This document shows positions 9,684 to 33,897 of a stretch of 40,211 bases of DNA, piece by piece (within the stretch, counting starts at the first letter, position 1; each line of letters starts with the position of its first letter). The notes beneath the pieces were generated by a model that was not told the origin of the DNA, made no database searches, and saw only the letters and a program-made list of their open reading frames with translations. Origin of the DNA: a virus; IMG/VR virus record IMGVR_UViG_3300024999_000215, positions 1 through 40,211 of that record, one strand, 5' to 3'. The position numbers and the translations under genes are program-made.

Positions 9684-9700
9684 AAAGGAGGATGAAACAA

Positions 9701-10312
9701 ATGGATAAGTACATTGGATTTAAGATGATCGAGGCAAAGCCTATGACAGGAGAGGATGCAGCTAAGTTACTAAATAGGTTTATAGATGCGTCAAATGCAG
9801 ATGCAGAAGGTAATGGTTACTTAGTGAAGTACGAAGACGGGTACACTTCATGGTCCCCAAAAGCTCAGTTTGAGAAGGCATACACAAAAGCTGAGGCTCG
9901 TAGAACTATAGGGGCAGGTCTAGAAATACAACCGCTCGATTCGAGTGTTTTTCTAATCAAGTTAAAAGAAGATCCTTTACCTGAAGAGATCGAGGCACTC
10001 AAGAAAGCGTGGAGAACTGCTATGTGCTATGAAGGAGCACCTAAGGTAACAGCACTTCTTGCACCTAATACTATAAACATAAAGTCGCTAGATGGTGCAA
10101 CTTTTGATTTCACAATGGCTCTACAGCTTCTGAAGTTGGGGCATAAGATCACAAGGACCTACTGGATGGATGGGGATAATGCGGTCTATTGGTTAGAGCT
10201 CGTGGATAATGATATCAAAAAAGGCCGGATGTGCGATGGTAATCTAAGCTATTGGGATGATGCAGAGTCGGCAGCCCTGCTAGCCGAAGATTATAAGCTC
10301 ATGAAGAGCTAA
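9701..10312 (+). CDS. Two-domain phage protein with C-terminal DUF2829/Tad2-like domain
   Basis: 203 residues from the ATG at 9701, seven to eight bases after AAAAGGAGG; an ATG at 9692 touches the ribosome site. N-terminal domain, residues 1-65: YIGFKMIEAKPMTGEDAAK, then GYLVKYEDGYTSWSPKAQFE, a compact module widespread in Firmicute phage proteins. A middle domain spans about 75-130. The C-terminal 75 residues (DFTMALQLLKLGHKITRTYW, a polar core, and LSYWDDAESAALLAEDYKLM) match the DUF2829 pattern. Characterised DUF2829 members (Tad2) sequester the Thoeris signal molecule; that this fusion does so is inference. The gene sits between terminase and an Ig-like protein. Confidence 0.72.
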   Translation: MDKYIGFKMIEAKPMTGEDAAKLLNRFIDASNADAEGNGYLVKYEDGYTSWSPKAQFEKAYTKAEARRTIGAGLEIQPLDSSVFLIKLKEDPLPEEIEALKKAWRTAMCYEGAPKVTALLAPNTINIKSLDGATFDFTMALQLLKLGHKITRTYWMDGDNAVYWLELVDNDIKKGRMCDGNLSYWDDAESAALLAEDYKLMKS

Positions 10313-15321: not shown

Positions 15322-15333
15322 GGAGGGATGAGC

Positions 15334-18300
15334 ATGGAGATACTTAACTTAAAAGACCTAGACATTATAAAGGGGTATTTTAAGCAAGAACTTCACCCGA
15401 GAGCAAGAGATGGAAAATTTGCTAAGAAGCATGAAGGTATTGTCTCTTCAGTTGTTAAGGAGGAGCCTAAAAAAGCACCTAAGACAAGTGCAAAGATAAA
15501 AGCTAAGGGGAGTACACCAAAAAAGTCTACCAAGAGCAAGGCTACCCCAAAAAAGACCGCTGGTAGCAAAGTAGCAACGACTAAGAAGACCACTAGCAAG
15601 AAAAAAGAGCTAGTGGTCAATGTTCCTGAAGTTAAGAAAGCAGCGGTTAAGAAAGCAGTGCCTAAAAAGCCTACACCTAAGAAATTCTTTGTTTACCATA
15701 TTGGATCAGGGACCTATAAAGAAGCCATCAATGCTAAAGAAGTTAAGCTGAAGTCTGTTAAGGGTTCCTTCTTCATGGAGCACCCAGACCCTGAGCATCC
15801 AGAAGATACGTATATCTACGAGGCTACAACAGGGACCAGAATAGTTTCATCCTACACAGGGGAAGAAGACGCTATTAAACACGCAGAGATTAGGCTTAGT
15901 GGTTGGGGTCAAGAATACTTCGATACCAAAATATCTGACCATAAGGCTATGAGAGGGCTATCACCTGGGCATAAAGAACCTAAACCAAAGGCTTCTAAAA
16001 AACCTACTGAAGCTAGTGAGGCAGCAGCCCCTAAGATGCCCCCAGTAATTGATAATCCAACTAAGAAACGAGTACCTAAGCCTAAGGTTGTTTCCCTACC
16101 TAAGACTAGCAATTCAGAATCTAGCGACCTAGTACCTGACTACCAAAACAAGGGGCGTGTAAGAGTCGTCGCTCGTCGAATAGGTAGTTATGCTGTGCCT
16201 AATATGCAGGTGAATAGCCGTGAAGACGTGGCCCAAGTTTTCGCTGATTTAACTGATTCAGATCGTGAGAAGAGCTATGTTATGGGAACCAAAGATGGGG
16301 AAGTCGTAGGTATTCACTGTGCTCACATAGGTAATGTTGATTCAAGTATTATTGATCCTAAAGACATGATGAAAGTACCGCTCCTATCCGGAGCAGATAC
16401 AGTTTATCTAATCCATAACCACCCAACAGGAGATAGCACCCCGAGTCAACCGGATGTGGCGGTTACCGAACGTTTTAGGGATGTAGCAGACCATATGGGT
16501 ATGAGGTTCGGTGGTCATGTTGTCATAGGGGATAATGAGTACACAGCCTTAAATGGCAATGGCAGCATTGTTGAGTTCAACAAGAATATGGATCGTTCTA
16601 AGATCATGAGAACTAAGCAGGCCCCTGTCTATGAAACCTACCAAGAAAAGGATGCCAGTGTACCGGGCCCTAGGATGAACGGTGTAGATGATGTAAAAGC
16701 CTACATCAAGAGTAATCTTAGTATTCATGATGCGGATAAATCAATCTACATCATTGGCGTTGACACAAAGAACGGGATTACCCATGCTGAGCCCCTTGAT
16801 GTAACTTTGCCACCAGATAAGCTTCGGAAGAAGGCCCTTGAAAGTTTGATTAAAGCTAACAGTAAAAGCTTTTTCATGTACACAGGCCTTGGGTCAAGTG
16901 AAGTCCTGCATAATGCAGGAATTCAAGGTGCCTCTAAAACTCTTAATATTCAGCTCTATGATGTCATTGTCCCTAATACCAATAGCAGGCAGGATATCGA
17001 TGCTGGGCACTGGGCATTCCGCTCGTATGCTGAGAGAAGTATCATGAGCGTAGTTAAAGGACTCTATATTGATCTTCAGAAGGCCCTTGCACCGGGTAAA
17101 GTGACTAAGACTCAGGCAAAGTCTCTGCACAAGGACCTGCCACCTGGTGGTGTGTGGCGCTCAATGAACGGGCACCATATCTATATTCTCAACGGTAAGG
17201 TATTGGCTGGTGCTATCCCGGGAGTGAAGAGTGCTAAGAAAGCGACGAAGGCCCATTTAGCTGAACATCAGGAAACCATAGACAAAGAAGCTAAGGCTGC
17301 TGCTGATGCTGCAAGAAAAGCCAAGAAGTCTACATCTAGTAAAGCTAAGCCCAAAACAGGTAAAGAGGCTATTGAAGACACGCTCAAAGGAGCTAATAAC
17401 AAAGAGTCCTCAACGAAACGAACCAAGGTAACACCTGAGTTCATGGCAAAGCAGAAGAAAGACGTGGATGCACTTGCTAAGAAGCCAAAAGCTAAGAGCA
17501 AGAAAGCAACGCTTGAAGAGCAGCAGAAAGCAGCCCATGAGATGCTTGGTACTAAGCCAGCTAAGGCCAAGGCTAAGGCTAAACCTATAGAGGATCCTAA
17601 AGACATTATGTCTATGATCCCTGATGCCTCAAGTTTTACACAGAGCAAAGAAGATTTAGGCCAAGCATGGAAACTTCCGTGGAGTAAGTACGCTGAAGCC
17701 CTCAAAAAGAGAAATGCTAATTTTAACCTTAACCTAGAGTCATTTAAGTCACAACACAAACGTCTGGTATCCAAGGCCTTAGACGAAGGGCAGAAGGTTC
17801 CTAAAGCTGTATTAGATGAGTACCCAGACCTTAAGCCTAAGAAGACTAAAAAGGGTGAAGTTGCGGATATTCGTACTGAAGCCCAGGTCAACAAAACAAC
17901 TGCTCGTGATGTTGGTCAGAAAGTTTGGGGATCTAAGAAGGATAAAGCTAGTCTACGGGCAGAATTTGCAGAAAAGCCAACGATGCAGGGGCTTGAAGCT
18001 TTAGAAGAAGTAGCTCCTGAAGTCGCGCAGACCTTGTGTGTTAAAAAGAATATTTTAGCACCTGTTGATTTCAAAGCTGAAATGGAGCGGGGAGTCGATG
18101 TCAATGTTGCTATGCTTAAGCAGCTCATCTATGATCGAATAGCAGCAAAGCCTCCTGAAGATACCCCCGTAGCAAGAGCTCACTATATGCGAGCTATTAA
18201 CGAGTTGCAGCGCCTACTTGAGCCTCATAAGACACAAGAGGAGTTCGATGGGGCTTATAGCTACTTAAGGAACTATATGAAAACGGAAGACCCTAAGTAT

Positions 18301-21300
18301 CTAAAAAATCAGCAAGGTATTCTCCATTATCAAGAAAGAGATTTAAGGGATGGGCCGTCACAATATGACCTAAGAACTAGCAGGCGTAATCCTAAAACAG
18401 GGGAACGGGAACCTGTAGACTTAACTCCTGAGCAATGGAGGGCCGAGAAGCAGGCACGTATTGACGAAATCAAAGCCAGTATAGCTATGTCTGAAACTTT
18501 AGCTAAGAAACCCTTCTTCCCACTCGGTGAGAAGCTAACAAAGTACTTCACAGATCATGAGAGTAAGGCAAGGACCAACCAGACCCTAAGAGACAAAAAG
18601 CTGACATGGGCTAAGTACTTCGGAAGTAAAGAAACTAAGAAACTAACCGATGAAGAAAAGAGCCAGCAATACTACCGAAAGGAGTCAACCAAGGGCACTA
18701 AGTTTGAACTAGCAAAAGATGCTACACCTATTGACATAGCCCCTAATATTGAGGCATTCCACTATGTTGATGCTAATGGTAAACACTTCATTCATGAAGT
18801 TAAGACAGGGATACCCCTATCTTCGGCCTACGGAAGAGCCACAAAAGAAGAAGCTATAGCTGGCGCTAAACGCTATGTTGAAAGTAATGGTAGTCGGCTT
18901 GACTCATGGCTGAAAAATCAAGTAGCTACAGGTAAAGTTAGTCCACGTTTTGCTAAGGAGAAAAAGGAAAGCGGAACAGCTGAAAAATGGGAAAAGGTGA
19001 TGCCTGAGAAGATACAGCGCATTGGTGGCCGTAAAACAAGTGTTCAGAAGCCTGAAGATATGGCTAAGACGTTCGGTTTCCGTGGGGTAGAGTTCGGGCA
19101 TTATGTTGATGATAAGTCAGGTAGCTTTCATCTTGTGAAGTCAGCTGAAGCAATGCATGACTTAGCAGATTTATTAGGCCTAGAGGATAAGGACATTTCA
19201 CTTAATGGTAAACTAGCAATGGCTTTTGGTGCTCGTGGTGGTGGCTGGGGATTAGCTCACTATGAACCTGATATGAAGGTTATCAATATCACGAAGAATG
19301 GTGGAGCGGGAAGTCTTGGACATGAATGGGGCCACGCCATGGACAATATCCTCTACCAGTACATGACAGGTAAAGCATCAACTAATTTAGCGTCTGACGA
19401 TAAAGGAGTTTTCTCAGAAAGTTCCTCACCTGAGCTGGCAAGTGCCTATAGAAGTCTTATGCAGGCTATTAAGGTAGGCGATGGTAAAGGTAAAGAGGCT
19501 ATCCATAACCAAAACCTTGAGTACTCAAGCTACCCTAGAAGCTGGAAAACAGCTTATGACACATTAGGATTAGATAAAGCTATTGAAGAAGTCACAAAAA
19601 CTATGAAAACCAGAAAAGACATTAATAGTGCAGTTCAGGTAATGGCATACCTACACAAGAAGGCAACTGGAGAAGCACCTGATACTCTTATGGTTAGTAC
19701 AGGACGATCACAGTATTACCTAGACTCTCTTCGAGTTGGTGGACTCAAAGAAAATAGCTATTGGGTACGACCGCATGAGTTATTTGCCCGGGCTTTTGAG
19801 ACACATCTTCAGCTGAAAATGGAGCAGAGTAAGAAGATCCACAATGACTATCTAGTTTATGGAGCTAAAGGTGTAGACCCAGGGTCCCCGTACCCAAGAG
19901 GTGAAGAAGCCGTAGCTATTAGTAAAGCCTTCGATAATCTTATGGACGTTGTAAAACGTGAGAAGGCCATCCAAAAAGGCCTAAGCTTTGATCTTCAGAA
20001 GGGTATTATCAGACGAAGTGATCTACAGAGGCCAGTAATCCCAAGTATAAGAAGCGCCTACCAAGTTGATGGATCATCCTTTGACAATCCCATAGATGAA
20101 ATACTCTATATCCCGACGAATAGACTTCAGACCCCTTTCCAGACGGACAAAGCCCTCGACTTTGATAAGGTACGTTCTCTCGTTACAAGAATGGAAGATG
20201 GGAGCCTTATAGCTCCTATCATTATTGGCTGGAACTATGAGGTCCATGACGGCCACCATAAGCTCGAAGCTAGTAAGATCAGAAATTACACCCACTGCCC
20301 GTGTATTATTGGGGAGTTCAACGACATTGACAAGCAGAGACTCTTTGAAGAGTACTCGGAGTTATGGAAATCCCTTAAAGATGATATAGCCACTACGGAC
20401 CTAGATGGAGAGAAGAAAGCAATTCTTGATTACTCTGAGCGCCTGAAACAGATCAAAGACCCTAAGATTCGGAAAGTTATCGCTGAGATTATCGCTGATG
20501 AGAAGAACCATGAGCATAACCTCAAGAAAGTCTTAGCTTATATGGCCGGGAATGAGGGGGCGCTTGATGATCTTCAGAAGTCATTGGTCTATCTACCAGA
20601 AGTAGACACTGGACTAAGCGCCTTCCCATATGACAACGCACCAGGAGTTATGTTTCGAGGCATAGGCCAAAAGGAATACGACTTTATTCAGAAGTCCGGA
20701 TACATCCAGACCAAGGGCAAAGGAAACGATGGGGACCAAGAAAATGTAGTTACTTGCTTCAGTACTCTTTTTAGCCAAGCAGAAGGGTATGCCCGCTCAA
20801 ACTATGACCTTTACCATGAGAAACAAGCTTATGTCTTAGCTGTAGAATACCAGGGAACAGAGAACGAATTAGGAGAAATTGAGGTTTTAGGAAAGATACC
20901 CGCTAGTTCAATTGTCGGGGTGGTGCTCGTTCCTAAGACACCGATTGTCAAAGGACTCTACATTGATCTTCAAAAGTCAATCACCCGCTCAGAGGCTAAA
21001 GGAGTGCATAAGGACCTTCCTGAGGGCGGGGTATGGAGGACCATGAGTGGTCACCACGTCTATATCAAGGATGGAAAGATCCTAGCTGGGTCAGTACCCG
21101 GGGCCAAAGGAGCAAAGAAGGCGACAAAATCCCATTTAGCTGAGCACCAGAAGACCGTGGATAAAGAGGCTAAGAAACCTGTCGTCCACAAATCCGAAAA
21201 GCCTATGTATGATAAGGCTAAGGGGGAGGGAACCTCCAAAACAAAAGGAGTGGACGCAAAGATGGGCGAAAGATTAAGTGCAACCAATGCTAAAAAACTT

Positions 21301-22803
21301 ATGGGTGAGTATGGTGTACCAGCAGGTCATAGGGAAGCTATTCTACAAACGTTGAAGCACAGTACAACGTCAAACAGTTTCAGTGCCCAAGGGCGGGATG
21401 AGTTAGATGCCACAGGAAGTAAAGAAGTTATAGGTCGTGAGTACAGTGCGGTGGATGTTCAGAAGGCCGTTGAAGCCTATAAAAAAGACAAAAAGTTTAC
21501 TAAAGACATTGCTGCTAAGGCAGTAGCCATAAATGAAGCTGCAAAGAGAGCTAAGCGGGCAAAAGCTGATGCTAAAGCTCAAAAAGAGCGGGAACACGAG
21601 GAATTCCTAGGTAAGGTCAAAGCAAACACTGAACAGATGTATAAAGATCAAGAGGCACGCGAGGCTAGGAAGAACAGGACTCCTGAGCAGATTGCTGCAG
21701 ATGAAAAAGCTTTCGCAGACTTTGACCCACTTGAACTACTGATGGCTGGTACTGAACCTAAGAAAGAGCCTTGGGAGATGACACCTGATGAATACTTCCA
21801 TGACAAGATGATTAAAATGGGGTACATGAAAGGGGCACAAGGTGAGTATGTAGGAGTTATACATGATCGATACAGGGAACACTTAGCAGGTAGTGCTAGT
21901 TTAGTACAGCAGAAGGAATGGTCAGATCAAGAACATAAAAAACTAGTACTCAAGCATCATGCAGAGACTACTTCCATGGCTGATGCCTTCAAGGAGTTTA
22001 TGGATGCTAATAAACCAAAAGAGGAGCCTAAGAAGGAAGAGCCTAAGATAAGTCAGTACTATAAGTCAAATAAATCTGTAGGGGATCACACAGGTAAGTT
22101 AACCTATGTACCTGTAGACGGTAAGAGGGTTGATGTAGGTGCTGGAGTCCACGCATTTATACACAAAGGAGCAGGTGATCAGAGATGGGTAGTTACAGAA
22201 GCTCAGACAGGTCTTTCACTCGCAGAGGGTAAAACTAGAGAATCCGCTATACAAGAGGCTACTAGAAGAACAGCTGAGCATGGGGTTACTAAACTTGTTG
22301 AATATATAAAGTCACATATCGAAAAACATGGGGAAAGCCCAGCAACAGCAGAACCAGGTAAAGCCGGGGTCATATTTGGATCTGAGCCAGAAGAAACCCC
22401 GTACCACATAGCTGTACCTAAAGGTAAAAGTGGAAAAGTTAAGTACATGCCAGTATATGAGCATGCAGAAAAGGTGAACGTAGGTAAAGGAGTTCATGCT
22501 TTTATCCATGGTAAAGATGGGGAATGGGTAGTTTCAGAAGCTCGCTCTGGTCTTAAAATTACAAGCGACAGCAGTAAGAATTTAGCTATAAAAGTAGCTA
22601 AAGATCTAATAGAGCGCAATAAGGGAAATATCAATGCTATGATTCAGAAGCACATTGAAAAACATGGCGAATCTCCTAAGACAGCCCCTACGTTTGATGA
22701 GTACGTCAAAAAAGAAGTCAAAGGATCTACGGATCATTTATCAGCAGAGGCATGGGGTAGCTACAGAAGAAGTTATGACTCCATCTACAACGGTAAAAGG
22801 TAG
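15334..22803 (+). CDS. Giant polyvalent protein (JAB/RadC, LPD1, ParB-like, ART-like and repeats)
   Basis: About 2489 residues; ATG 15334 fits the AGGAGGG spacing better than 15328. Domains (residues approximate, counted from 15328): 1-32 tag ending HPRARDGKF; 35-115 Lys/Ala/Pro-rich basic tail; 117-200, 1124-1210, 2254-2335 and 2366-2450 four copies of an xHAFIH...WVVxEAxTG module; 276-417 RadC-type JAB domain with HNHPTGD..PSQPD metal motif; 577-630 and 1874-1925 two copies of YIDLQK...GGVWR..GHH.YI; 821-835 a VPKAVLDEYPDL helix as in phage helicases; 1220-1370 LPD1 with HEWGHAMDN; 1594-1661 ParB-like with DGHHKLEAS; 1670-1745 helical ferritin-like; 1771-1870 ART-like (FRG, CFSTLFSQAEGYA, EIEV). 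Such polyvalent proteins are packed in capsids and injected to protect incoming DNA (family knowledge); delivery here is inferred. Confidence 0.85.
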   Translation: MEILNLKDLDIIKGYFKQELHPRARDGKFAKKHEGIVSSVVKEEPKKAPKTSAKIKAKGSTPKKSTKSKATPKKTAGSKVATTKKTTSKKKELVVNVPEVKKAAVKKAVPKKPTPKKFFVYHIGSGTYKEAINAKEVKLKSVKGSFFMEHPDPEHPEDTYIYEATTGTRIVSSYTGEEDAIKHAEIRLSGWGQEYFDTKISDHKAMRGLSPGHKEPKPKASKKPTEASEAAAPKMPPVIDNPTKKRVPKPKVVSLPKTSNSESSDLVPDYQNKGRVRVVARRIGSYAVPNMQVNSREDVAQVFADLTDSDREKSYVMGTKDGEVVGIHCAHIGNVDSSIIDPKDMMKVPLLSGADTVYLIHNHPTGDSTPSQPDVAVTERFRDVADHMGMRFGGHVVIGDNEYTALNGNGSIVEFNKNMDRSKIMRTKQAPVYETYQEKDASVPGPRMNGVDDVKAYIKSNLSIHDADKSIYIIGVDTKNGITHAEPLDVTLPPDKLRKKALESLIKANSKSFFMYTGLGSSEVLHNAGIQGASKTLNIQLYDVIVPNTNSRQDIDAGHWAFRSYAERSIMSVVKGLYIDLQKALAPGKVTKTQAKSLHKDLPPGGVWRSMNGHHIYILNGKVLAGAIPGVKSAKKATKAHLAEHQETIDKEAKAAADAARKAKKSTSSKAKPKTGKEAIEDTLKGANNKESSTKRTKVTPEFMAKQKKDVDALAKKPKAKSKKATLEEQQKAAHEMLGTKPAKAKAKAKPIEDPKDIMSMIPDASSFTQSKEDLGQAWKLPWSKYAEALKKRNANFNLNLESFKSQHKRLVSKALDEGQKVPKAVLDEYPDLKPKKTKKGEVADIRTEAQVNKTTARDVGQKVWGSKKDKASLRAEFAEKPTMQGLEALEEVAPEVAQTLCVKKNILAPVDFKAEMERGVDVNVAMLKQLIYDRIAAKPPEDTPVARAHYMRAINELQRLLEPHKTQEEFDGAYSYLRNYMKTEDPKYLKNQQGILHYQERDLRDGPSQYDLRTSRRNPKTGEREPVDLTPEQWRAEKQARIDEIKASIAMSETLAKKPFFPLGEKLTKYFTDHESKARTNQTLRDKKLTWAKYFGSKETKKLTDEEKSQQYYRKESTKGTKFELAKDATPIDIAPNIEAFHYVDANGKHFIHEVKTGIPLSSAYGRATKEEAIAGAKRYVESNGSRLDSWLKNQVATGKVSPRFAKEKKESGTAEKWEKVMPEKIQRIGGRKTSVQKPEDMAKTFGFRGVEFGHYVDDKSGSFHLVKSAEAMHDLADLLGLEDKDISLNGKLAMAFGARGGGWGLAHYEPDMKVINITKNGGAGSLGHEWGHAMDNILYQYMTGKASTNLASDDKGVFSESSSPELASAYRSLMQAIKVGDGKGKEAIHNQNLEYSSYPRSWKTAYDTLGLDKAIEEVTKTMKTRKDINSAVQVMAYLHKKATGEAPDTLMVSTGRSQYYLDSLRVGGLKENSYWVRPHELFARAFETHLQLKMEQSKKIHNDYLVYGAKGVDPGSPYPRGEEAVAISKAFDNLMDVVKREKAIQKGLSFDLQKGIIRRSDLQRPVIPSIRSAYQVDGSSFDNPIDEILYIPTNRLQTPFQTDKALDFDKVRSLVTRMEDGSLIAPIIIGWNYEVHDGHHKLEASKIRNYTHCPCIIGEFNDIDKQRLFEEYSELWKSLKDDIATTDLDGEKKAILDYSERLKQIKDPKIRKVIAEIIADEKNHEHNLKKVLAYMAGNEGALDDLQKSLVYLPEVDTGLSAFPYDNAPGVMFRGIGQKEYDFIQKSGYIQTKGKGNDGDQENVVTCFSTLFSQAEGYARSNYDLYHEKQAYVLAVEYQGTENELGEIEVLGKIPASSIVGVVLVPKTPIVKGLYIDLQKSITRSEAKGVHKDLPEGGVWRTMSGHHVYIKDGKILAGSVPGAKGAKKATKSHLAEHQKTVDKEAKKPVVHKSEKPMYDKAKGEGTSKTKGVDAKMGERLSATNAKKLMGEYGVPAGHREAILQTLKHSTTSNSFSAQGRDELDATGSKEVIGREYSAVDVQKAVEAYKKDKKFTKDIAAKAVAINEAAKRAKRAKADAKAQKEREHEEFLGKVKANTEQMYKDQEAREARKNRTPEQIAADEKAFADFDPLELLMAGTEPKKEPWEMTPDEYFHDKMIKMGYMKGAQGEYVGVIHDRYREHLAGSASLVQQKEWSDQEHKKLVLKHHAETTSMADAFKEFMDANKPKEEPKKEEPKISQYYKSNKSVGDHTGKLTYVPVDGKRVDVGAGVHAFIHKGAGDQRWVVTEAQTGLSLAEGKTRESAIQEATRRTAEHGVTKLVEYIKSHIEKHGESPATAEPGKAGVIFGSEPEETPYHIAVPKGKSGKVKYMPVYEHAEKVNVGKGVHAFIHGKDGEWVVSEARSGLKITSDSSKNLAIKVAKDLIERNKGNINAMIQKHIEKHGESPKTAPTFDEYVKKEVKGSTDHLSAEAWGSYRRSYDSIYNGKR

Positions 22804-22911: not shown

Positions 22912-25900
22912 ATGAATCTATACATAGATCTACAGAAGAGCGTTTCGTGGAAAGAGGACTTACACAAGCGGGATGAGTTCGGCAAGTTTACAACTATCAA
23001 AGGCGGGTCCAGTGTTGTTACAAGTACCGGAAAAACAGGAACCGTTGAAAAAATTACTGACAGCCATTATCACGTCCGTTTTTCCGACGGTAAGAAAGGG
23101 AAAGTAGCTAAGGGCAACACTATCCATGCATCAGATCATAGGAAGGTAATGGATGCCCAAGCAAAGACGAAGAAGCGGAAGGCCTCTGCTGCAGTTGGTC
23201 AAACGACCAAAGCAACGAATAAGGCCAATGGTGCAGGTAAAGCTACAGAGCCTAAACTAGTTTTGACCAGTGGCAAAAAGCAACAATCTACTAAGGTAAA
23301 AGCCATGGAACAGAAGGCCACAGCAGAAAATAAGGCTAATAGAAGAGCTAAAAAAGAGCGTGATCTTTCGGCCCCTGATATACTTCGGAAGCCTATTGAG
23401 CAGGGAACGACTGGACGATCCGCTACCCTAAAGAATACTGAGCAGAGTTCTCATGCAGTGGACTATAAAGATTTAGAGAACAGCCCTGAGGCTACGTCAA
23501 GGCTTGATGAAATGTGGAACTCCAAGGAAGCTAAGGCTCTTATGAAAAAAGAGCCGGGTAAACGCTCAGAGGCTGATATTCGCCGGATTGCTGGAGATAT
23601 GACTACTCAAAATGACCGCTTAGCCTACCACACGACTCTTCAGATGGGTAAGGCCCGGGGAATGAATCTCCTTAGCCAAGTTAATCGTATAGGTGACGTT
23701 GGCCCAAGTGGTGACGGTGAGGTCCATAATCAAGAGACAGGTTACTACGGGGATCTTCTTCAGACGGCCCGGGCTAGTATGTACGAAACTCTATACCGGG
23801 TCATGAGCGGGAGCCAGAACCCTGGTAAAGACACCAACATTGGAGCCCATGTTATATCCCGTATGAAGCAGAAGCTGCACAAGGATATGTATGCTCTTCT
23901 AAATGAGGTCCCGGCACCCCATGAAATCAGGGGAGCACTGGCAGACCTGCACAAGGGAAAAACAGAGCTAACCCAGAGTCTAGGCCACACACCATCAACG
24001 GAAGAACTTGCGAATCATTTGCAACAGACTTCAGCTAAGTTTAAAAACGCACCGATTATGGACAACCCAACCTATGATGAAAAAGCAGGGCAGTGGATAG
24101 CCACTAAGAAGCGAATCAGTGATCCGGTGGAACGCTTAAAGACCTTACAGGCCTACAGAGACAGGCAGAAGACCACCACCTTAGATAAAGATATCGATGG
24201 AGAAGAGGGTACTGCAGGCTCAGCAGCAGCTAACGTGAAGAGCACAGAAGCAACACCAGATGAACAGTATGAGCAGAAAGAACGCCAAAAAGAACTCAAG
24301 ACGGCAATACCTAAAGTTCTCCAAGACATCGGGCTAAGTAGTAAAGAAAAGATGGTCTTTATGGTCATGTTCGGAAGCCCTTCTGCTAAGATCAACAAAG
24401 GGAATATGACCCTTGACGAAGTAGCCGATGCTATTAATAAACAGGGTGGGTATGAAGGTGGTAAACAAGCCACCAAGGATTGGGTTAATAAATACTACAG
24501 AAGTGCTATGGTTAAGCTATCCGATGCTCGAACGAAGAATCATCCGGCCTTAAAAGAACTTGCTATGCTGAAGTCCTTAGTCTTTAACCTCATTATGAAA
24601 TCACTTTATGAGTATGATCTTGTGAAGTCCTTGAACTCATGGGGAATAGGTACTGATGTCTTGGTATACAAACAAACGAGGATTGCCACGGCAGATAACC
24701 TTCTTTCCCTGCAGAAGTCTATGGCACCTCAAGAGTACATTGGATCGTTAGTCTACACCGAGGGTGGAGAGCTCCATGCTCGAATTGTTGAGTTTGGACT
24801 ACCTGAGGATAATGAACTCTATAAAAGCTTCAACTCGTCCTTAGAGAAGTCCATGTTTCCCCATAAGGGTAAGCAGCATGAGGTCAATAAGAAGATGGGG
24901 GACTATATAAAGGCCAACTCAAAAAAGTACTCTAGCCTATCTGAAGCCCAGCATGGATCGGCTAGAAAAAAGAGTTCTGGGCATACATGGTCAGAAGAAC
25001 TCCTTCTGAAGAACCCAGGCAGTGCATGGGTTACGTGGGGCGGTAAACGGGTCTTAGTCAATACTTCTGATGGAAAGCTCATCTATGATTCGGCTAACTC
25101 TGTACACAGGGAAGAGCACAATGAGAGCGCTCCAGAGGATAAGATCGACTTCCACCATGAGCAGGACGCTGAGCATAAGGACGAGGGCATCGAAGCCTTT
25201 AAAGAAGACATGGAAACAATGCGCAAGGACTGGCGCGGTGACGAAACAGATAAGGACCTAGGCATACGGAAGACCTACTTAAGAGAGCATGAGCACAAAG
25301 GGCACCACGACTATGCCAACTTTACAGAAGACGAGCAAAAAGCTTATGAAACGATGAACGAGGACGAGCGTAAGAAGTTTCTAGGCAAACGTTATCTAGA
25401 AAAGGAAGGCGTTAAAGAAGCCCTACAGAAGTATCGTGACAGCGGAGATACTGAAGCAGACCGAAAAGAGATCATGGATGCCCTGTCTAAGTCTGGATCT
25501 ATGGCAGGTAAAAACGCAAAGATGATGGTCGGTAAAACAGGTAATAGTGGCCTACTAGCCCAAGTACGTAAAGGCGCTGATGAGGACACCATAGCCGACT
25601 TATTAGGCCAAAATGAGCTTACAAGGGCTAAGGAAGAGGCCAGTAAAAAGCTTTTGCCTGATGGTACATACCTCGTGGGTAATCCCCTCACGGGTAAAAC
25701 CATAGCCCTAAGAATTAAGAATGAAGTTACTAAGGCTGGTCAAGGTGGGGCCCATACTAGATTTGGTTCAACGATTGCTGAAGTCTTCGATCCTGATGGT
25801 GGTCAACATGAGGACCTAAACACATGGGGAGGCCTAGGAAAGGCTCTAGGGTACACAGGCGCTGATGCCTCAGGTCTTCAGGACATCTTAGCCAAGAAAG

Positions 25901-28900
25901 CAAACTCTGAGGGTGATAAGCCCTTTATGAAGCAGATCGATGAAGCTGAGTATGCTAAGGCACGGTCCAACACCAAGCTAGGGCTGCAAGAGGGCATGGC
26001 TCACAAAGACTTCAAGCTTGTTAACCAGAGTCGAAATAAAAAGGGCGAAGTAACGAGTCATACCTACGCACAGGACATGCCTGATGGCACCCAGAACACG
26101 GTCATGGTTGATGCTAAGGGGACGATCACAGATCCAGTCATGGCAAGGCTTCTGAAGCAGAGAAAGCCTATTATGAACGAAAAGGACCTCCATGAAGTCA
26201 TGAAAGGCGCTGTAGGTAATAGAGCATGGGTAACTGCGCATTCAGGGAGTGGAACTCATATTAGTGATTCTCTTGGCCACCACATTCAGCTAGAGTATGA
26301 TGGAAAAGGGGCTCCACGGGTAGTTGGTGGAGAGTATGATGGCTATCGATTCATGGATACCAATGACATACCAAAGGGAGCGGTAGATCCTGCTACAGGT
26401 GAACCGATCAAAGCCTTGTTCAAGGGAGGAAAGCTTGTAGATCGAGGTCTAACGACTAAGAACAAAGTAGCTATGAAGGAAGGAAACGCTGTTCTCTACC
26501 CAGGAGAAAAAGGCTTCAGAAAAGGTCGAATCCACTCTATTGAAGGAGACACCTACAAGGTAACCGATGGCAAAGGTCATGTCATAGGGATGTTCAAGAA
26601 GTCAGAGCTTAAACAAGCTTCTGAAGAAGGTCGAACCTTATCGGCTAGTGGTCAGGCTGTTGTAAAAACTGCGAAGACGGGTACACACCGGATGGATACT
26701 ACAAGTACCTTTAAAGCAGATAATCCTAAAGATCAGAAGAAAGTTGACAAGGTAAAAGAGCTCTTCAGTCAAGCGCTTCAGAAGGCAGGGATAAACAGTG
26801 CCTTTGATAAAGACGGTGTTATGAACATCCAACTTGAGCTATCAGATGCTATGATGAAGCAGCTAACCAAGCGCCTCGGTAGATCAAAAGCAGGTAAAGA
26901 GCTCCTTAAACAATTTAAGAGTGCTTATACAAAAGAGCTTGAGATTCATGTACCTGAAGCTATGAGGGACCAAGTGTCTACCTATGGGGTTAGAGTCTTG
27001 AACGATGGAACGGCTAAGATTTCAGCAGGTAAGTTCGAAGAGCTTAGGGAAGCCCTAGGAGGCCTGTCTGTAAGTCATGATGCTAGGGAACACCTAGCAG
27101 AGCATTTCAACCGCAAGGATCGTAAGCCTAAAAGTCCTGAAGAGCTTCAGAAGGCCTATCAGCCAAATGCTAGTGACTCAGAAAGTGCCTTTGGTCAGGC
27201 ATATAGAGCTCAGTTTAAGCCTGATAGTCGGATCATGGACAAAGGACTCTATGGTACACAGCTAGCGGGATTATCACATTTAGTTGAACGAGGGCGCGGT
27301 ATAGTGGGGCACGGGATGGGTACGGGGAAGACTATCACAGGGATGGCAGCAGCTTTGCACGAGAAAGCTAAGGCTATCTCTGAAGGTAGGAAACCTGGTA
27401 AAACTCTCATCGTCTCACCTGCTGGAATTCAATCGGACTGGGGTAAAGAGATAGGAAAAGAGACAAACTCCAGAGCTCTTTACATTGGATCCGAAGGTAG
27501 TCTTCGGAAGCGAGATAGTGGTGGTAACTGGATGAAGTCTGAGAATGATCGGCACATGTTTGGGATGGATGGTACTGAGCAAGAAGCTGTGAGTTCTAAG
27601 CACTTTGTAAATAACATGGGAAGCATCGGTTCAGAAGACCATGACTTTCATATTATGTCCTATGACCAGTTCATGAAGCACAGAGATGCTCTTTCGAAGT
27701 CCGGTTTGTATGATAACATCATCGTTGACGAAGTACATGCTTTTAAGAACCAAGGCCGGCAGCGTGGGAAGTCACTAGCTGAAACAACTGAGTCCTTTAA
27801 AAATGTCTGGGGGCTGTCAGGTACTCCTATGGAAAATGATGCTCGTGAAGTCCATAGCCTTATTGATACTGTTACAGGTGGAAGACATGAACTCGGTACA
27901 GCTAAGGAGTTTACAGAGAAGTTCCTTATGAAGGACAAGAATGGTAAAGTTATCGGAGTTAAGCCAACGATGGCTGATAAGCTCGGAGACATTGTAGCTA
28001 ACATTGTCCAGTTTAGGGGTTCAGAAGATGTTCAGTACAATGATGGATCTAAGATTCATTTTCCTCACATCGTTGGCAGTGACGCAGCCCAAAAGGAGAA
28101 TGCTCCTGAAGACTTCATGAGTAATATGGCAGACCGCAATCGTGATCAAAAGACAACAGATACTTATGGAACGAAACACAGTGTCTTCGACTACGAACCA
28201 GGGGCCATGCCCAATACCACATCTCCCACGAATCTAACCGATGACCAAAAAGATTTTTACGACGAGTATCGTAAGATTCAGAAACAGTACCTGCCAGATT
28301 CTAAACTTAGTGAACTTGTAAAGGCCAGTGAAACAGGTTATGACAATTCTGAAAAAGGTAAAGAGGGATCATCTAAGAACTATCTAACAGCTATACAGAA
28401 GCTTCAGAAGCACCTAAATGCACCGCTGGCTAGTAAGATGTATGTACCTGGTGGGGGAAGTGCACTAGATTCAGGAGATACAGACGCACAAGCAGAACCC
28501 GGGGCCAAAGTTAAGAAAGCGAAGGCCGGGGGATTAAAACCTTATAACCCAGTCACAGGTGAAGGCCACTATAAGGTTGATGAACACGGTGACAGGCGGT
28601 ACTTTGAAAGTGATGGAGAAGGTAGTTTTAAACGAAACAAAGACGGAAGTCCTAAGCTCATGGCACCGATGCACCACAATAATCCTAAGGCAGAGTATAT
28701 GAAACAGCGTATAAGCACCTACCTAGATTCATTAGCTACTGAGAACGAAGCCAGAGCTAAAGCAGGTAAACCAGAGTTGATGCCTAAAGTCGTTGTGAAG
28801 TCTAGTTACACTACTTTTGGAACCGATATTGCAGATGGAGTTATTCGTGATCTACAGCGTGAGCACCCGCACTTAGCGTACTGGGCAGATAAACTTGACC

Positions 28901-29514
28901 GACAAGGGCAAAGCTTAAGTTCTGGACAGTTTACCGGGGAGTCTAAGGAACGAGAAGAGATCAAATCGAGCTTCAGGGGTAGCAAGGAAGAAAACAGCTA
29001 TGCTAAGAACCAGGGTAATATGTGGGCCACCACAGTGTCCCCTGCAGGTAAAGAAGGCGTGGACCTCGGTAACGCACACTTAATGTTAATGATGGATCAA
29101 GACTGGAACCCCCAGAAAATGGCGCAGTTTACCGCCCGAGTAAGACGTTCAGACTCAGCATCAGGTGGGCATGCGCAAGTAGGACGAGCTAATAGCGTTC
29201 GCATTGAATCACTGCATATGCCCGGGACCATTGAAGACTTCATGTTCAACGCTGAAGACGCAAAGATGGGGGATATCAAAAGAGTCGCTAAGGCTACACG
29301 AGATGCTGAAGAGGTCACTAAGTTTGGAGATTCAGAGGCTAAGATTAGTTCAGCCAAGAACTTCACTCGTAGTCAGAAACGAAGAGCAGGTGCTAAGCCA
29401 AAGGGGACAACAGGTGACCCAGGTAGCATTCAAAGACCAAAGCCCAGCGAAAATCCCCCACCTCAAGTTGGTAGGCAGGTAGCTAAAGCACTTAAACTCG
29501 TTATTATTCTATAA
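22912..29514 (+). CDS. Giant polyvalent protein: sigma-70-like module fused to SNF2/DEAD-type helicase
   Basis: 2200 residues; AGAAGGAGGGG precedes the ATG. N-terminus: YIDLQKS tag and KRDEFGKF, then an SH3/KOW-like stretch (about 34-73). Residues 185-545 align with sigma-70: region 2-like GYYGDLLQTARASMYETLY and IGAHVISRMKQKL, region 3-like SLGHTPSTEELANHL, a linker TTLDKDIDGEEG, and region 4-like LSSKEKMVFMVMFG, MTLDEVADAIN, WVNKYYRSAMVKL. A middle region has a second SH3-like patch near 1193-1233. Helicase, 1440-2130: GMGTGKT (1469), VDEVHAF (1606), GLSGTPMEN (1634), a long insertion, AGKEGVDLG and QFTARVRR (2045-2080). Relatives (P1 DarB) are injected and counter restriction. A sigma domain in the same chain suggests action on host RNA polymerase as well. 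Confidence 0.85.
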   Translation: MNLYIDLQKSVSWKEDLHKRDEFGKFTTIKGGSSVVTSTGKTGTVEKITDSHYHVRFSDGKKGKVAKGNTIHASDHRKVMDAQAKTKKRKASAAVGQTTKATNKANGAGKATEPKLVLTSGKKQQSTKVKAMEQKATAENKANRRAKKERDLSAPDILRKPIEQGTTGRSATLKNTEQSSHAVDYKDLENSPEATSRLDEMWNSKEAKALMKKEPGKRSEADIRRIAGDMTTQNDRLAYHTTLQMGKARGMNLLSQVNRIGDVGPSGDGEVHNQETGYYGDLLQTARASMYETLYRVMSGSQNPGKDTNIGAHVISRMKQKLHKDMYALLNEVPAPHEIRGALADLHKGKTELTQSLGHTPSTEELANHLQQTSAKFKNAPIMDNPTYDEKAGQWIATKKRISDPVERLKTLQAYRDRQKTTTLDKDIDGEEGTAGSAAANVKSTEATPDEQYEQKERQKELKTAIPKVLQDIGLSSKEKMVFMVMFGSPSAKINKGNMTLDEVADAINKQGGYEGGKQATKDWVNKYYRSAMVKLSDARTKNHPALKELAMLKSLVFNLIMKSLYEYDLVKSLNSWGIGTDVLVYKQTRIATADNLLSLQKSMAPQEYIGSLVYTEGGELHARIVEFGLPEDNELYKSFNSSLEKSMFPHKGKQHEVNKKMGDYIKANSKKYSSLSEAQHGSARKKSSGHTWSEELLLKNPGSAWVTWGGKRVLVNTSDGKLIYDSANSVHREEHNESAPEDKIDFHHEQDAEHKDEGIEAFKEDMETMRKDWRGDETDKDLGIRKTYLREHEHKGHHDYANFTEDEQKAYETMNEDERKKFLGKRYLEKEGVKEALQKYRDSGDTEADRKEIMDALSKSGSMAGKNAKMMVGKTGNSGLLAQVRKGADEDTIADLLGQNELTRAKEEASKKLLPDGTYLVGNPLTGKTIALRIKNEVTKAGQGGAHTRFGSTIAEVFDPDGGQHEDLNTWGGLGKALGYTGADASGLQDILAKKANSEGDKPFMKQIDEAEYAKARSNTKLGLQEGMAHKDFKLVNQSRNKKGEVTSHTYAQDMPDGTQNTVMVDAKGTITDPVMARLLKQRKPIMNEKDLHEVMKGAVGNRAWVTAHSGSGTHISDSLGHHIQLEYDGKGAPRVVGGEYDGYRFMDTNDIPKGAVDPATGEPIKALFKGGKLVDRGLTTKNKVAMKEGNAVLYPGEKGFRKGRIHSIEGDTYKVTDGKGHVIGMFKKSELKQASEEGRTLSASGQAVVKTAKTGTHRMDTTSTFKADNPKDQKKVDKVKELFSQALQKAGINSAFDKDGVMNIQLELSDAMMKQLTKRLGRSKAGKELLKQFKSAYTKELEIHVPEAMRDQVSTYGVRVLNDGTAKISAGKFEELREALGGLSVSHDAREHLAEHFNRKDRKPKSPEELQKAYQPNASDSESAFGQAYRAQFKPDSRIMDKGLYGTQLAGLSHLVERGRGIVGHGMGTGKTITGMAAALHEKAKAISEGRKPGKTLIVSPAGIQSDWGKEIGKETNSRALYIGSEGSLRKRDSGGNWMKSENDRHMFGMDGTEQEAVSSKHFVNNMGSIGSEDHDFHIMSYDQFMKHRDALSKSGLYDNIIVDEVHAFKNQGRQRGKSLAETTESFKNVWGLSGTPMENDAREVHSLIDTVTGGRHELGTAKEFTEKFLMKDKNGKVIGVKPTMADKLGDIVANIVQFRGSEDVQYNDGSKIHFPHIVGSDAAQKENAPEDFMSNMADRNRDQKTTDTYGTKHSVFDYEPGAMPNTTSPTNLTDDQKDFYDEYRKIQKQYLPDSKLSELVKASETGYDNSEKGKEGSSKNYLTAIQKLQKHLNAPLASKMYVPGGGSALDSGDTDAQAEPGAKVKKAKAGGLKPYNPVTGEGHYKVDEHGDRRYFESDGEGSFKRNKDGSPKLMAPMHHNNPKAEYMKQRISTYLDSLATENEARAKAGKPELMPKVVVKSSYTTFGTDIADGVIRDLQREHPHLAYWADKLDRQGQSLSSGQFTGESKEREEIKSSFRGSKEENSYAKNQGNMWATTVSPAGKEGVDLGNAHLMLMMDQDWNPQKMAQFTARVRRSDSASGGHAQVGRANSVRIESLHMPGTIEDFMFNAEDAKMGDIKRVAKATRDAEEVTKFGDSEAKISSAKNFTRSQKRRAGAKPKGTTGDPGSIQRPKPSENPPPQVGRQVAKALKLVIIL

Positions 29515-30501: not shown

Positions 30502-30530
30502 TTGCCATTTACTTCCGAAGTTGGTATATT
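30502..30530 (+). promoter_or_regulatory. Putative sigma-A promoter of the capsid operon
   Basis: TTGCCA, 17 bases, TATATT. The palindrome ACTTCCGAAGT sits inside the spacer, where a bound protein could block polymerase. Confidence 0.65.
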
Positions 30531-30576
30531 TAGCAGTAACTAAACACACAGGGCAACAAAATCCGTGTATAAACAC

Positions 30577-30661
30577 AGCTAGGATGGCCCAAGACACGTA
30601 GACTAGGCCAAGGTTTCGCCAGCTCACCTAGCCAAGCAGCGTGTCTTTGGCCATCCTAGCT
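30577..30661 (+). ncRNA. Long structured leader RNA before the capsid protease gene
   Basis: A 22-bp stem with one C/U mismatch joins 30577-30598 (AGCTAGGATGGCC...AAGACACG) to 30640-30661. Inside, CTAGG/CCTAG (30603-30607 with 30627-30631) forms a second helix holding a small GG-TTTCG-CC loop. It lies 40 bases after the predicted start and 37 bases before the protease start codon. No U-tail follows, so it is not a terminator. Family unknown. Confidence 0.6.
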
Positions 30662-30697
30662 TTCGGCTTACACTCACTTCGGAAGGTGGTGAAATAG

Positions 30698-32329
30698 TTG
30701 CTAGTTGATGAATCGCTACAAAATGATACATATTCTGCATGGGTGCCAATAGATGATGATATTGTAAAGTCCATTGAAATTGACGAAAATGGCGATTACA
30801 TTGTTACAGGGGTTATGACATCAGAGGTTAAAGATGAGGAAGACGATACTATCACTCCTGAAGGCATGGATTGCTCATATTTCCTCGAAAAGGGATGGGT
30901 AAAGTACGAACACGGTAACGCCCCAAGCCAGTTTATTGGGGAACCCTTAGAGGTTAAAATAGGTCAATTCACTCACCCAACGCGACATGAGGTAGTGAAA
31001 GGGATTTTTATAAAGTCAAAGCTTTTCGCACAAAGAAAACTTGCTCAAGAGGCTATCCAGGCGCTGCAGGATCTTCAGAAGTCTAATACCAAACGTATGA
31101 TGGGCTGGAGTATTGAAGGTAGTGTCAAAGAACGCAGTCGAACGACAGGCAAGATTATTAAGTCTGTACTTAGAAATGTTGTCCTAACAATGAATCCAGT
31201 GAACACCATGACTTGGGCAGAGCTTGCAAAGTCCTTTGATAAAAGTCATGAGTTAACTATTTCTATGGGCATGGAAAAATCAATGGACACTGCAGGAGCT
31301 GCAGCTATCATGCCTCAGTCTTTAGAAGGAACTACTCAAGATCCTCAAAGGGACTGGGTTAAACTTTTTAGGGAGTTTTGCAGAAGTAACTTTTTGCAGA
31401 AGTCCCTACGTAATAAGTTCGTCGCTGGCTCACCAGGCGCTGTAGGTACGATGACCTATGCATTTGCCCTGGAGAAGGGGCTAGATAACGAAGAGGCATA
31501 TACATTTGCCTCATATATATTAGACAGGCACGACATCTTAAAATCTATTTTTAATACAAATTTTGGGGGTGGGGCTATGGGTAAGACAGAAGATCTTGCA
31601 GGTCTGTTAGATGCGGATTTGGAGGAACTTAGGAAGTCCTTAAAGCTGGATACAGAAGATGATGAGGAGCTTGTGAAGTCCAGTAATAAGGATGAAGACG
31701 ACGACGAAAAGGGTGAAGACGACGATGGCGATGACGAATCCGGTGATGAAGACGAATCCGGTGATGAAGACGAATCCGGTGATGAAGACGAATCCGGTGA
31801 TGAAGACGATGAAATGAAAGACAAGTCTCTTCAGATGGACTTCCGGAAGTCCTTCGTAGCTAGTGAGGAAAATGCTCAGGCGCTCGAAGTATCTGATTTT
31901 TTGTCAAACATGGTGGACGAGCTTGGATACAGTATGGATGGCCTTTCGAAGTCCCTAGGCGTTGTGTCTAAGCAGCAAGTGACTATGACTAAAGCCCTCA
32001 TGGGTGCGTTTGACATTATAAAGAGCTTGACTGAAAAAGTTGAGGCAATGCAGACGGATAACAAAGATCTTAAGAAGTCTCTTGACGGTGTTATGAATCT
32101 CCCGATTGGGCGAAAAGGTGCTGTAAGCCAGCGAGAGGTCACAACCCTTAGTAAATCCATTGAAGGGGATAAGGGTGGCCTTACACGCAGGCAGGCCGGG
32201 GATATCCTTATGAAGTCCTTCGATGCCAAATTGATCCCGGGTTCAGCCGTTACAAGGTTTGAAGCAGGGACACCACTGCAGAACTTAGGTTTACCGGATT
32301 CAGTTAAAGCTGAACTGGGTATGCAGTAA
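30698..32329 (+). CDS. Capsid maturation (prohead) protease fused to scaffold-like domain
   Basis: 543 residues from TTG, with GGAAGGTGGTG seven bases upstream. Residues 1-185 resemble prohead serine proteases: VTGVMTSEVKDEEDD near 41, a His in WVKYEHGN near 69, the candidate nucleophile Ser in MMGWSIEG near 148, and LTMNPVNTMTWAELAKS near 168. The rest looks like scaffold: helical segments, an acidic tract (330-370, four exact GDEDES-type repeats) and coiled-coil (435-470). At least seven (L/F)xKS motifs are spread through it. The protease trims head proteins after assembly and usually degrades the scaffold. The next gene is the capsid protein, the standard order. Confidence 0.8.
   Translation: MLVDESLQNDTYSAWVPIDDDIVKSIEIDENGDYIVTGVMTSEVKDEEDDTITPEGMDCSYFLEKGWVKYEHGNAPSQFIGEPLEVKIGQFTHPTRHEVVKGIFIKSKLFAQRKLAQEAIQALQDLQKSNTKRMMGWSIEGSVKERSRTTGKIIKSVLRNVVLTMNPVNTMTWAELAKSFDKSHELTISMGMEKSMDTAGAAAIMPQSLEGTTQDPQRDWVKLFREFCRSNFLQKSLRNKFVAGSPGAVGTMTYAFALEKGLDNEEAYTFASYILDRHDILKSIFNTNFGGGAMGKTEDLAGLLDADLEELRKSLKLDTEDDEELVKSSNKDEDDDEKGEDDDGDDESGDEDESGDEDESGDEDESGDEDDEMKDKSLQMDFRKSFVASEENAQALEVSDFLSNMVDELGYSMDGLSKSLGVVSKQQVTMTKALMGAFDIIKSLTEKVEAMQTDNKDLKKSLDGVMNLPIGRKGAVSQREVTTLSKSIEGDKGGLTRRQAGDILMKSFDAKLIPGSAVTRFEAGTPLQNLGLPDSVKAELGMQ
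31733..31804. repeat. Four perfect 18-bp tandem repeats coding an acidic tract
   Basis: GACGAATCCGGTGATGAA is repeated four times without mismatch, then a partial fifth copy. In frame it codes DESGDE-type hexapeptides. Confidence 0.95.
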
Positions 32330-32369: not shown

Positions 32370-33839
32370 ATGTTTGAAAACTTTAATGGCCTTGAAGACG
32401 GCTTTGGTCAAGGCACAGTAGGGGAACTTGAGGAGCTTAATAAAGCTCTAGGCACAGGGGAGCAGGGAGATGCATACGGTAGTTTTAATGACATGTCGGC
32501 GCTGCGCCCACAGTCTCTGGAAGCAACCCTTAAGGTGGTTACCGCAACAACAGACCAGATAAAGTTCTGGAGGCGCATTGGAAAGAAACAAGCGTTTAAC
32601 ACTGTTGAAGAGTTCAACGTAATGGACAGCATGGGGGGAAATTCTTCTCCGTTCTTCGTTGAGGGTGGCCTTCCGAATGAAGAAGATTCACACTACCTCC
32701 GTCAGAGCCAGTACGTTAAGTTCCTCGGAACGACTCGTGTTATCACACACCCTGCAACGTTAGTACGTAACACGGTCGGTGATATCGTTGCCCGGGAAAC
32801 TACGAATGGAACTTCTTGGCTCTTAATGCAGCTCGAAAAAGCACTGTACTTCGGTAACTCAGCTCTTGATCCACTATCCTTCGATGGTGTTATCACACAA
32901 GTTAAAAACTTTGTCGCTGGAAAAACGTATGCCAATCAGCATGTTATCGACATGAAGGGGCAGCCACTGGATGAGAATACCATGGAAGATGTTTCAGCGA
33001 TTATTGCTGATAACTTCGGAAGAGGAAAACTAGAGCTGCACTTAACAAATCAGGTTAATAAGGACCTATCTAAGCTTGTTATGGGCTCAAGTGGTCGTCA
33101 ACGGGTAATGATGGGTCAAGGACAAGAAATCATGTTGGGGCAACCTATCGGTGGCTACATGGCAAATGCTGGTCCGATTGAGTTTGTGAACAACATATTC
33201 CTTAAGCCACAGGCTACTGTATCCTCAGCTTCAGCTAAAGGAGCACCTGCTGTACCAACGTACCCGGTTGGTCAGGTAGTAGCTGGATCATCTGGGGCTA
33301 CAATCCCTTCAGGAACCTATTACTACTTCGTAACAGCTAAAAACAGCGCTGGAGAGTCTGCACCTGTTGCTATGGGCTCTGTAGCTGTTACCCTAGGACA
33401 AACAGTTACTTTAACGATTAATCGAGTTGTTGGTGATCCACCGGCGAAGTCTTACAAAGTCTACCGTGGTACGAAGTCTACAGCTGCTGATGCCCTATTT
33501 GCCTTTGAAATCAAGGATGCTGGTGCAGAGGTGACTCAAGCTATTATAGATACGAATGCTGATATCCCAGGAACACACACCGCAATGGCGCTAGATAATG
33601 ACTCAGAAAATGTTCTCTCCTTTAAGCAACTGGCTCCACTTATGAAGCTACCGTTAGCCCGCATTTCAGCTGCAGAACGCTTCATGATTCTGCTCTACGG
33701 TATGATTCAAGTGTACAACCCTCGGAGAATTGTCGTGCTTAAAAACATTGGGACACTTGGCCTCAACTCTAACCGTGAGCTCTTCACCCCGAACTATGAT
33801 GCTCCTAGCTTCGGTACAGTTCGCCCCAGCCTTCAGTAA
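32370..33839 (+). CDS. Major capsid protein (HK97-like fold) with inserted Ig-like domain
   Basis: 489 residues; AGAGGGGG precedes the ATG. Residues 1-45 are a hydrophilic delta-like N-arm. Residues 50-285 resemble capsid proteins of the SU10/DUF5309 group (ALRPQSLEATLKVVT, RQSQYVKFLGTTRVITHPA, LEKALYFGNSALDPLSFDG, VNKDLSKLVMG). Residues about 290-400 are a separate beta domain (GTYYYFVTAKNSAGESAP, SYKVYRGT), Fn3/Ig-like, exposed on capsid surfaces in known cases. The C-terminus returns to the fold (ARISAAERFMILLYGMIQVYN, IGTLGLN). Followed by a terminator, as expected for the most abundant virion protein. Confidence 0.88.
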   Translation: MFENFNGLEDGFGQGTVGELEELNKALGTGEQGDAYGSFNDMSALRPQSLEATLKVVTATTDQIKFWRRIGKKQAFNTVEEFNVMDSMGGNSSPFFVEGGLPNEEDSHYLRQSQYVKFLGTTRVITHPATLVRNTVGDIVARETTNGTSWLLMQLEKALYFGNSALDPLSFDGVITQVKNFVAGKTYANQHVIDMKGQPLDENTMEDVSAIIADNFGRGKLELHLTNQVNKDLSKLVMGSSGRQRVMMGQGQEIMLGQPIGGYMANAGPIEFVNNIFLKPQATVSSASAKGAPAVPTYPVGQVVAGSSGATIPSGTYYYFVTAKNSAGESAPVAMGSVAVTLGQTVTLTINRVVGDPPAKSYKVYRGTKSTAADALFAFEIKDAGAEVTQAIIDTNADIPGTHTAMALDNDSENVLSFKQLAPLMKLPLARISAAERFMILLYGMIQVYNPRRIVVLKNIGTLGLNSNRELFTPNYDAPSFGTVRPSLQ

Positions 33840-33862
33840 TACCATCTATTTAGTGTACACGA

Positions 33863-33897
33863 GTGAGGGCTAGGGCTAGAATCTAGCCCTCACTTTT
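33863..33897 (+). terminator. Rho-independent terminator after the capsid gene
   Basis: A perfect 11-bp stem (GTGAGGGCTAG/CTAGCCCTCAC), 9-base loop, and TTTT then ATTTT. Confidence 0.9.

Follow-up and report, generated by a model that had tools for sequence, protein, structure and literature searches.

Does the long leader in front of a phage capsid protease gene act as a regulatory RNA, and is it part of a layered control of head-gene expression, as an initial annotation had proposed? The window, meaning the whole stretch of DNA analysed here, is a virus record of 40,211 bases (IMGVR_UViG_3300024999_000215). In it, the leader precedes a capsid protease-scaffold fusion gene with a TTG start (30698..32329, + strand; phrog_1028, E 8e-43; scaffold phrog_15087), followed by the major capsid protein gene (32370..33839, + strand; phrog_752, E 8e-81). 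The terminase, the portal and two giant polyvalent-type proteins are encoded upstream of the protease gene, the latter two (RadC, LPD1, helicase-like; 15328-22803 and 22912-29514) between portal and protease. The best Herelleviridae matches to the protease-scaffold and capsid proteins had 26–37% identity over the matched part, and among named genomes the closest relative was a Paenibacillus maysiensis contig with 54% capsid identity. The phage is a member of an uncultured Herelleviridae-like clade. A KS[LFIM]-type motif occurred about 15 times within the protease-scaffold protein (30698-32329) and is possibly this protein's own cleavage site. The protein encoded at 9692-10312 showed sub-threshold similarity to a Tad2-like (Thoeris anti-defence) domain.

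Relatives gathered by capsid and protease searches fell into about ten distinct lineages. The initial annotation had placed a promoter with a palindrome in its spacer before the leader, and a second palindrome over the ribosome site of the TTG start; all of these were present. The promoter is of the sigma-70/A type (TTGCCA-N17-TATATT with an extended −10; 30502..30530, + strand), has 10 of 12 consensus matches with TG before the −10, and contains ACTTCCGAAGT at 30511..30521 (strand-neutral). Since promoter consensus matches in the region showed no excess over chance (17 found vs 19.4 expected), support for the promoter comes from its conservation: the same architecture was common to all ten lineages, upstream of the element. 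The second palindrome (CTTCGGAAG, 30677-30685) overlapped the ribosome-binding site GGAAGGTGGTGA (30681..30692, + strand), which precedes the start at 30698, and was not conserved in most lineages.

Downstream of the promoter, a conserved 5′ motif (GGGCAACAAAATCC, of the family GGGCAACRAARTCC; 30551..30564, + strand), unpaired in the model, is followed by helix P1 (30577..30661, + strand; arms 30577-30598 and 30640-30661). P1 has one internal mismatch and encloses helix P2 (30606..30633, + strand), which carries a CA/A internal loop and an apical loop CCAGCTC (30619..30625, + strand) that was invariant in 11 of 11 sequences. The annotated 22-bp stem and inner helix were thus borne out, with the P1 arms complementary at 21 of 22 positions and P2 formed by AGGT (30611-30614) with ACCT (30626-30629) and GGC (30606-30608) with GCC (30631-30633). 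The described extent had to be revised, as the structure is larger and begins with the 5′ motif, and the palindromes, although present, belong not to the leader RNA but to a separate word repeated across the genome. Folding energy gave a z-score of −4.9 over the whole leader (184 nt) and of −8.1 over its core. Of the 4010 overlapping 120-nt pieces into which the window was divided, both strands included, the one with the stem region was the most stable. It is not a terminator, in agreement with the initial annotation: a U-run is absent, the loop measures 41 nt, and the stem was not among the terminator-like sites.

All ten phage lineages, with capsid proteins 65–100% identical, carried the element before the same protease gene, and it was in the same place in every protease relative of the RNA-bearing clade with intact upstream sequence. 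In lineages with upstream sequence, the order before the protease was promoter, 5′ motif, P1, P2 capped by CCAGCTC, sometimes P3 (a variable third hairpin found in several relatives), ribosome site and start codon. The 5′ motif was nearly invariant, with AUACAACAAAACCA in the most divergent leader, L008. The P1 of L008 had almost no sequence in common with that of the window, while the helix was kept.

Compensatory changes in related phages, the test named in the initial annotation, were found. Since plain MAFFT alignments misplaced the helices, a structure-guided alignment of 11 leaders (A9) was used. In this alignment, which was hand-fitted to the fold and thereby favours it, 94.8% of the cells were paired and 30 of 34 pairs showed two-sided changes, each in at least one sequence. 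Its covariation was 0.573 vs 0.186 in shuffles, 0 of 500 shuffles reached the observed value, and slid controls collapsed. As a check of the fold independent of the hand-fitted alignment, a covariance model based on just three other relatives recovered both the window (E 8e-9) and L006 (5e-7). Covariance model R1 missed L008, which was aligned by hand, and model R2 was discarded because its source alignment contained antisense matches.

Relative to the start codon, the CCAGCTC loop fell in differing frames, most of them closed, which places the conservation at the RNA level. A frame open across the leader in L016, L017 and L020 could point to a leader peptide or an attenuator ORF, but this frame is broken in L006, L018, L026, L034, the window and others, and the conserved motifs shifted from frame to frame. 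Because reading frames were not conserved, this explanation is largely refuted and we regard it as extremely improbable. The excess of G-U over A-C cells in the alignment (8 vs 4) weakly fits a sense-strand RNA. RTCC of the 5′ motif is able to pair alternatively with GGAY in the 5′ arm of P1, and in the window lineage both changed together, in one event, GUCC/GGAC becoming AUCC/GGAU; judged from these sequences, the two may constitute an internal switch. Pairing between the P2 loop and the ribosome site was feasible in all leaders (−7 to −15 kcal/mol) and the leader's own partner was not preferred (permutation p 0.22). Simple Shine-Dalgarno sequestration by the P2 loop was set aside, since such pairing is possible everywhere and not partner-specific.

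The P1 duplex of about 21 bp with its internal mismatch ends 25–37 nt upstream of the protease start codon across lineages, just beyond the ribosome footprint. It could serve, without any regulatory ligand, as an RNase III-type processing site or as a 5′ shield that keeps an abundant capsid mRNA stable. We consider this unlikely, since neither the 5′ motif nor the invariance of the CCAGCTC loop would be explained.

The capsid gene is followed by an intrinsic terminator (33861..33895, + strand) with a doubled GGGCTWGGGCTA-like 5′ arm/loop. Among 218 terminator-like sites, the GGGCT loop was limited to capsid-gene terminators. At this place the window and all nine relatives inspected (L006, L008, L016-L018, L020, L022, L026, L037) have a terminator, and promoter, leader, protease gene, capsid gene and terminator were retained together as a unit. 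An antitermination RNA resembling HK022 put would modify the polymerase to read through this terminator into the tail genes. The leader lies directly behind the promoter, the capsid gene of those relatives that were checked is closed by the conserved terminator with its unusual doubled arm, and AGCUC of the loop could base-pair with GGGCU in this terminator. The 5-bp loop-terminator complementarity, however, is not significant by itself, its two sides hardly vary, and none of the known antitermination RNAs in Rfam was matched, which makes this role doubtful.

The initial annotation had also offered a separate small RNA. Such a free-standing molecule, released from the leader and acting in regulation, head assembly or packaging, would suit an element that has its own promoter and in which P1 closes the entire fold like a stable independent RNA. 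No terminator follows it, however, and all its occurrences were at the protease gene, other pattern matches being unrelated; a small RNA of this kind is therefore improbable. A fast genome search with R1 showed a single element place per genome in five records and missed the window and L006-type leaders. The P2-loop DNA pattern also matched one unrelated coding sequence. The constant position of P1, the single protease-capsid unit and the closing terminator favour a leader acting in cis over an RNA acting in trans.

The element was absent from seven annotated-phage loci tested (six Herelleviridae, one Bacteroides phage) and from the next-nearest, Paenibacillus-associated clade (54% capsid identity), and thus marks the window's clade. 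In Rfam 15, no family scored above its curated cut-off for the window and related leaders, and nothing meaningful appeared at low thresholds. A group I intron (Rfam RF00028) was seen at L017 61-296. In searches of the open-access PMC literature, neither such a leader nor an iterated palindrome in these phages was described. The leader RNA is real, strongly selected and apparently uncatalogued.

The palindrome in the promoter spacer, a candidate operator, is a copy of the word CTTCSGAAG. With up to one mismatch, ACTTCSGAAGT occurred at 13 sites in the window (8377-39818) vs 0.42 expected. Exact CTTCSGAAG was present in 145, 151, 127 and 107 copies in four related records of 94–107 kb (G003-G006; 1.1–1.5 per kb), in 29 copies in a 102-kb near relative, in 14 in the window and in 1 in an 80-kb L008-type record, while a reversed control word had 0–12 copies in the same records. 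This corresponds to 20–70 times expectation; in most stretches tested, the word was about 25–65 times above a second-order expectation. The copies lay in every reading frame, in coding as well as intergenic DNA, had no strong flanking consensus, and in the four high-copy records nearly always had C or G at the centre. The excess was absent from other phages, including sister clades, and from the P. maysiensis genome. In a search for a host with the same palindrome, none of 398 genomes from the phylum to which the P. maysiensis relative belongs approached the phage density.

In eight of ten lineages the palindrome was located a few bases after the −35 of the protease promoter, and one more lineage had it with one mismatch. 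L008 has CCTTTCCAAAGT in this spacer and is without the word genome-wide; this joint loss, a single case, suggests that one DNA-binding factor reads both the promoter palindrome and the genome-wide copies. Promoters with a spacer palindrome elsewhere in these genomes were near the number expected by chance. Control at the DNA level is thus plausible for the promoter copy and not for the mostly unconserved copy at the ribosome site.

With a probability of roughly 0.6, we read the element as a cis-acting, conserved 5′-leader RNA of the protease-capsid transcription unit in one uncultured Herelleviridae-like clade. As in structured cis-regulatory leaders, its helices are kept by compensatory changes, and it occupies a constant place within the 5′ UTR of a single class of genes. 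Sequence comparison established how the leader folds, that its loop is invariant and its position fixed, and that a unit runs from promoter to terminator. The leader probably controls expression of the head genes. Transcription would start about 7 nt after 30530, and the nascent leader would fold into P1 holding P2 with its loop CCAGCUC, and P3 in several relatives. Recognition by a partner is implied by a loop that never changes while the stems vary freely. We infer that both the loop and the 5′ motif GGGCAACRAA are recognized by a phage or host RNA-binding protein. The bound leader would set how much the first gene is translated or how stable its message is, and so tune the supply of protease and capsid protein. 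The promoter palindrome would be read separately by a DNA-binding factor that binds the same word genome-wide. Of the layered head-gene control put forward in the initial annotation, the structured leader is upheld by compensatory changes, constant position and a conserved promoter; a DNA-level layer is plausible at the promoter palindrome only. A more elaborate and unlikely version is that this clade-defining RNA couples head-gene expression to assembly, through head-protein binding or the capsid-gene terminator, and that a phage-wide DNA-binding factor reading the roughly 100–150 CTTCSGAAG copies per genome gates the same promoter.

An RNA fold with an invariant loop before capsid genes points to undescribed RNA-level control of head production, and the leader defines a family open to searching and reporter testing. 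As a HIP1-like word, the iterated palindrome is unusual for phage genomes, and its natural loss in one relative makes the link to the promoter testable.

Like this leader, the put antitermination RNAs of HK022 are short, folded and located just behind a phage promoter, but their size and motifs differ, and antitermination is a property of put and only a candidate role here. GOLLD and ROOL are conserved structured noncoding RNAs, some of them phage-borne. They are large and ornate (PMC12286853), whereas the present element has about 110–165 nt and always lies in one leader. Ribosomal-protein-type autoregulatory leaders, such as the L10 leader of rplJL (PMC4538822), likewise place a structured RNA immediately 5′ of the gene they regulate; unlike these, our element precedes capsid genes and is without an Rfam match. 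HIP1, the highly iterated palindrome of cyanobacteria, and the stoperators of mycobacteriophages (PMC6604393, PMC9283540) are, like CTTCSGAAG, short genome-wide repeats; here the word also occurs at a promoter. CTTCSGAAG differs from both in sequence, is phage-borne, and is palindromic and more numerous than the mycobacteriophage stoperators.
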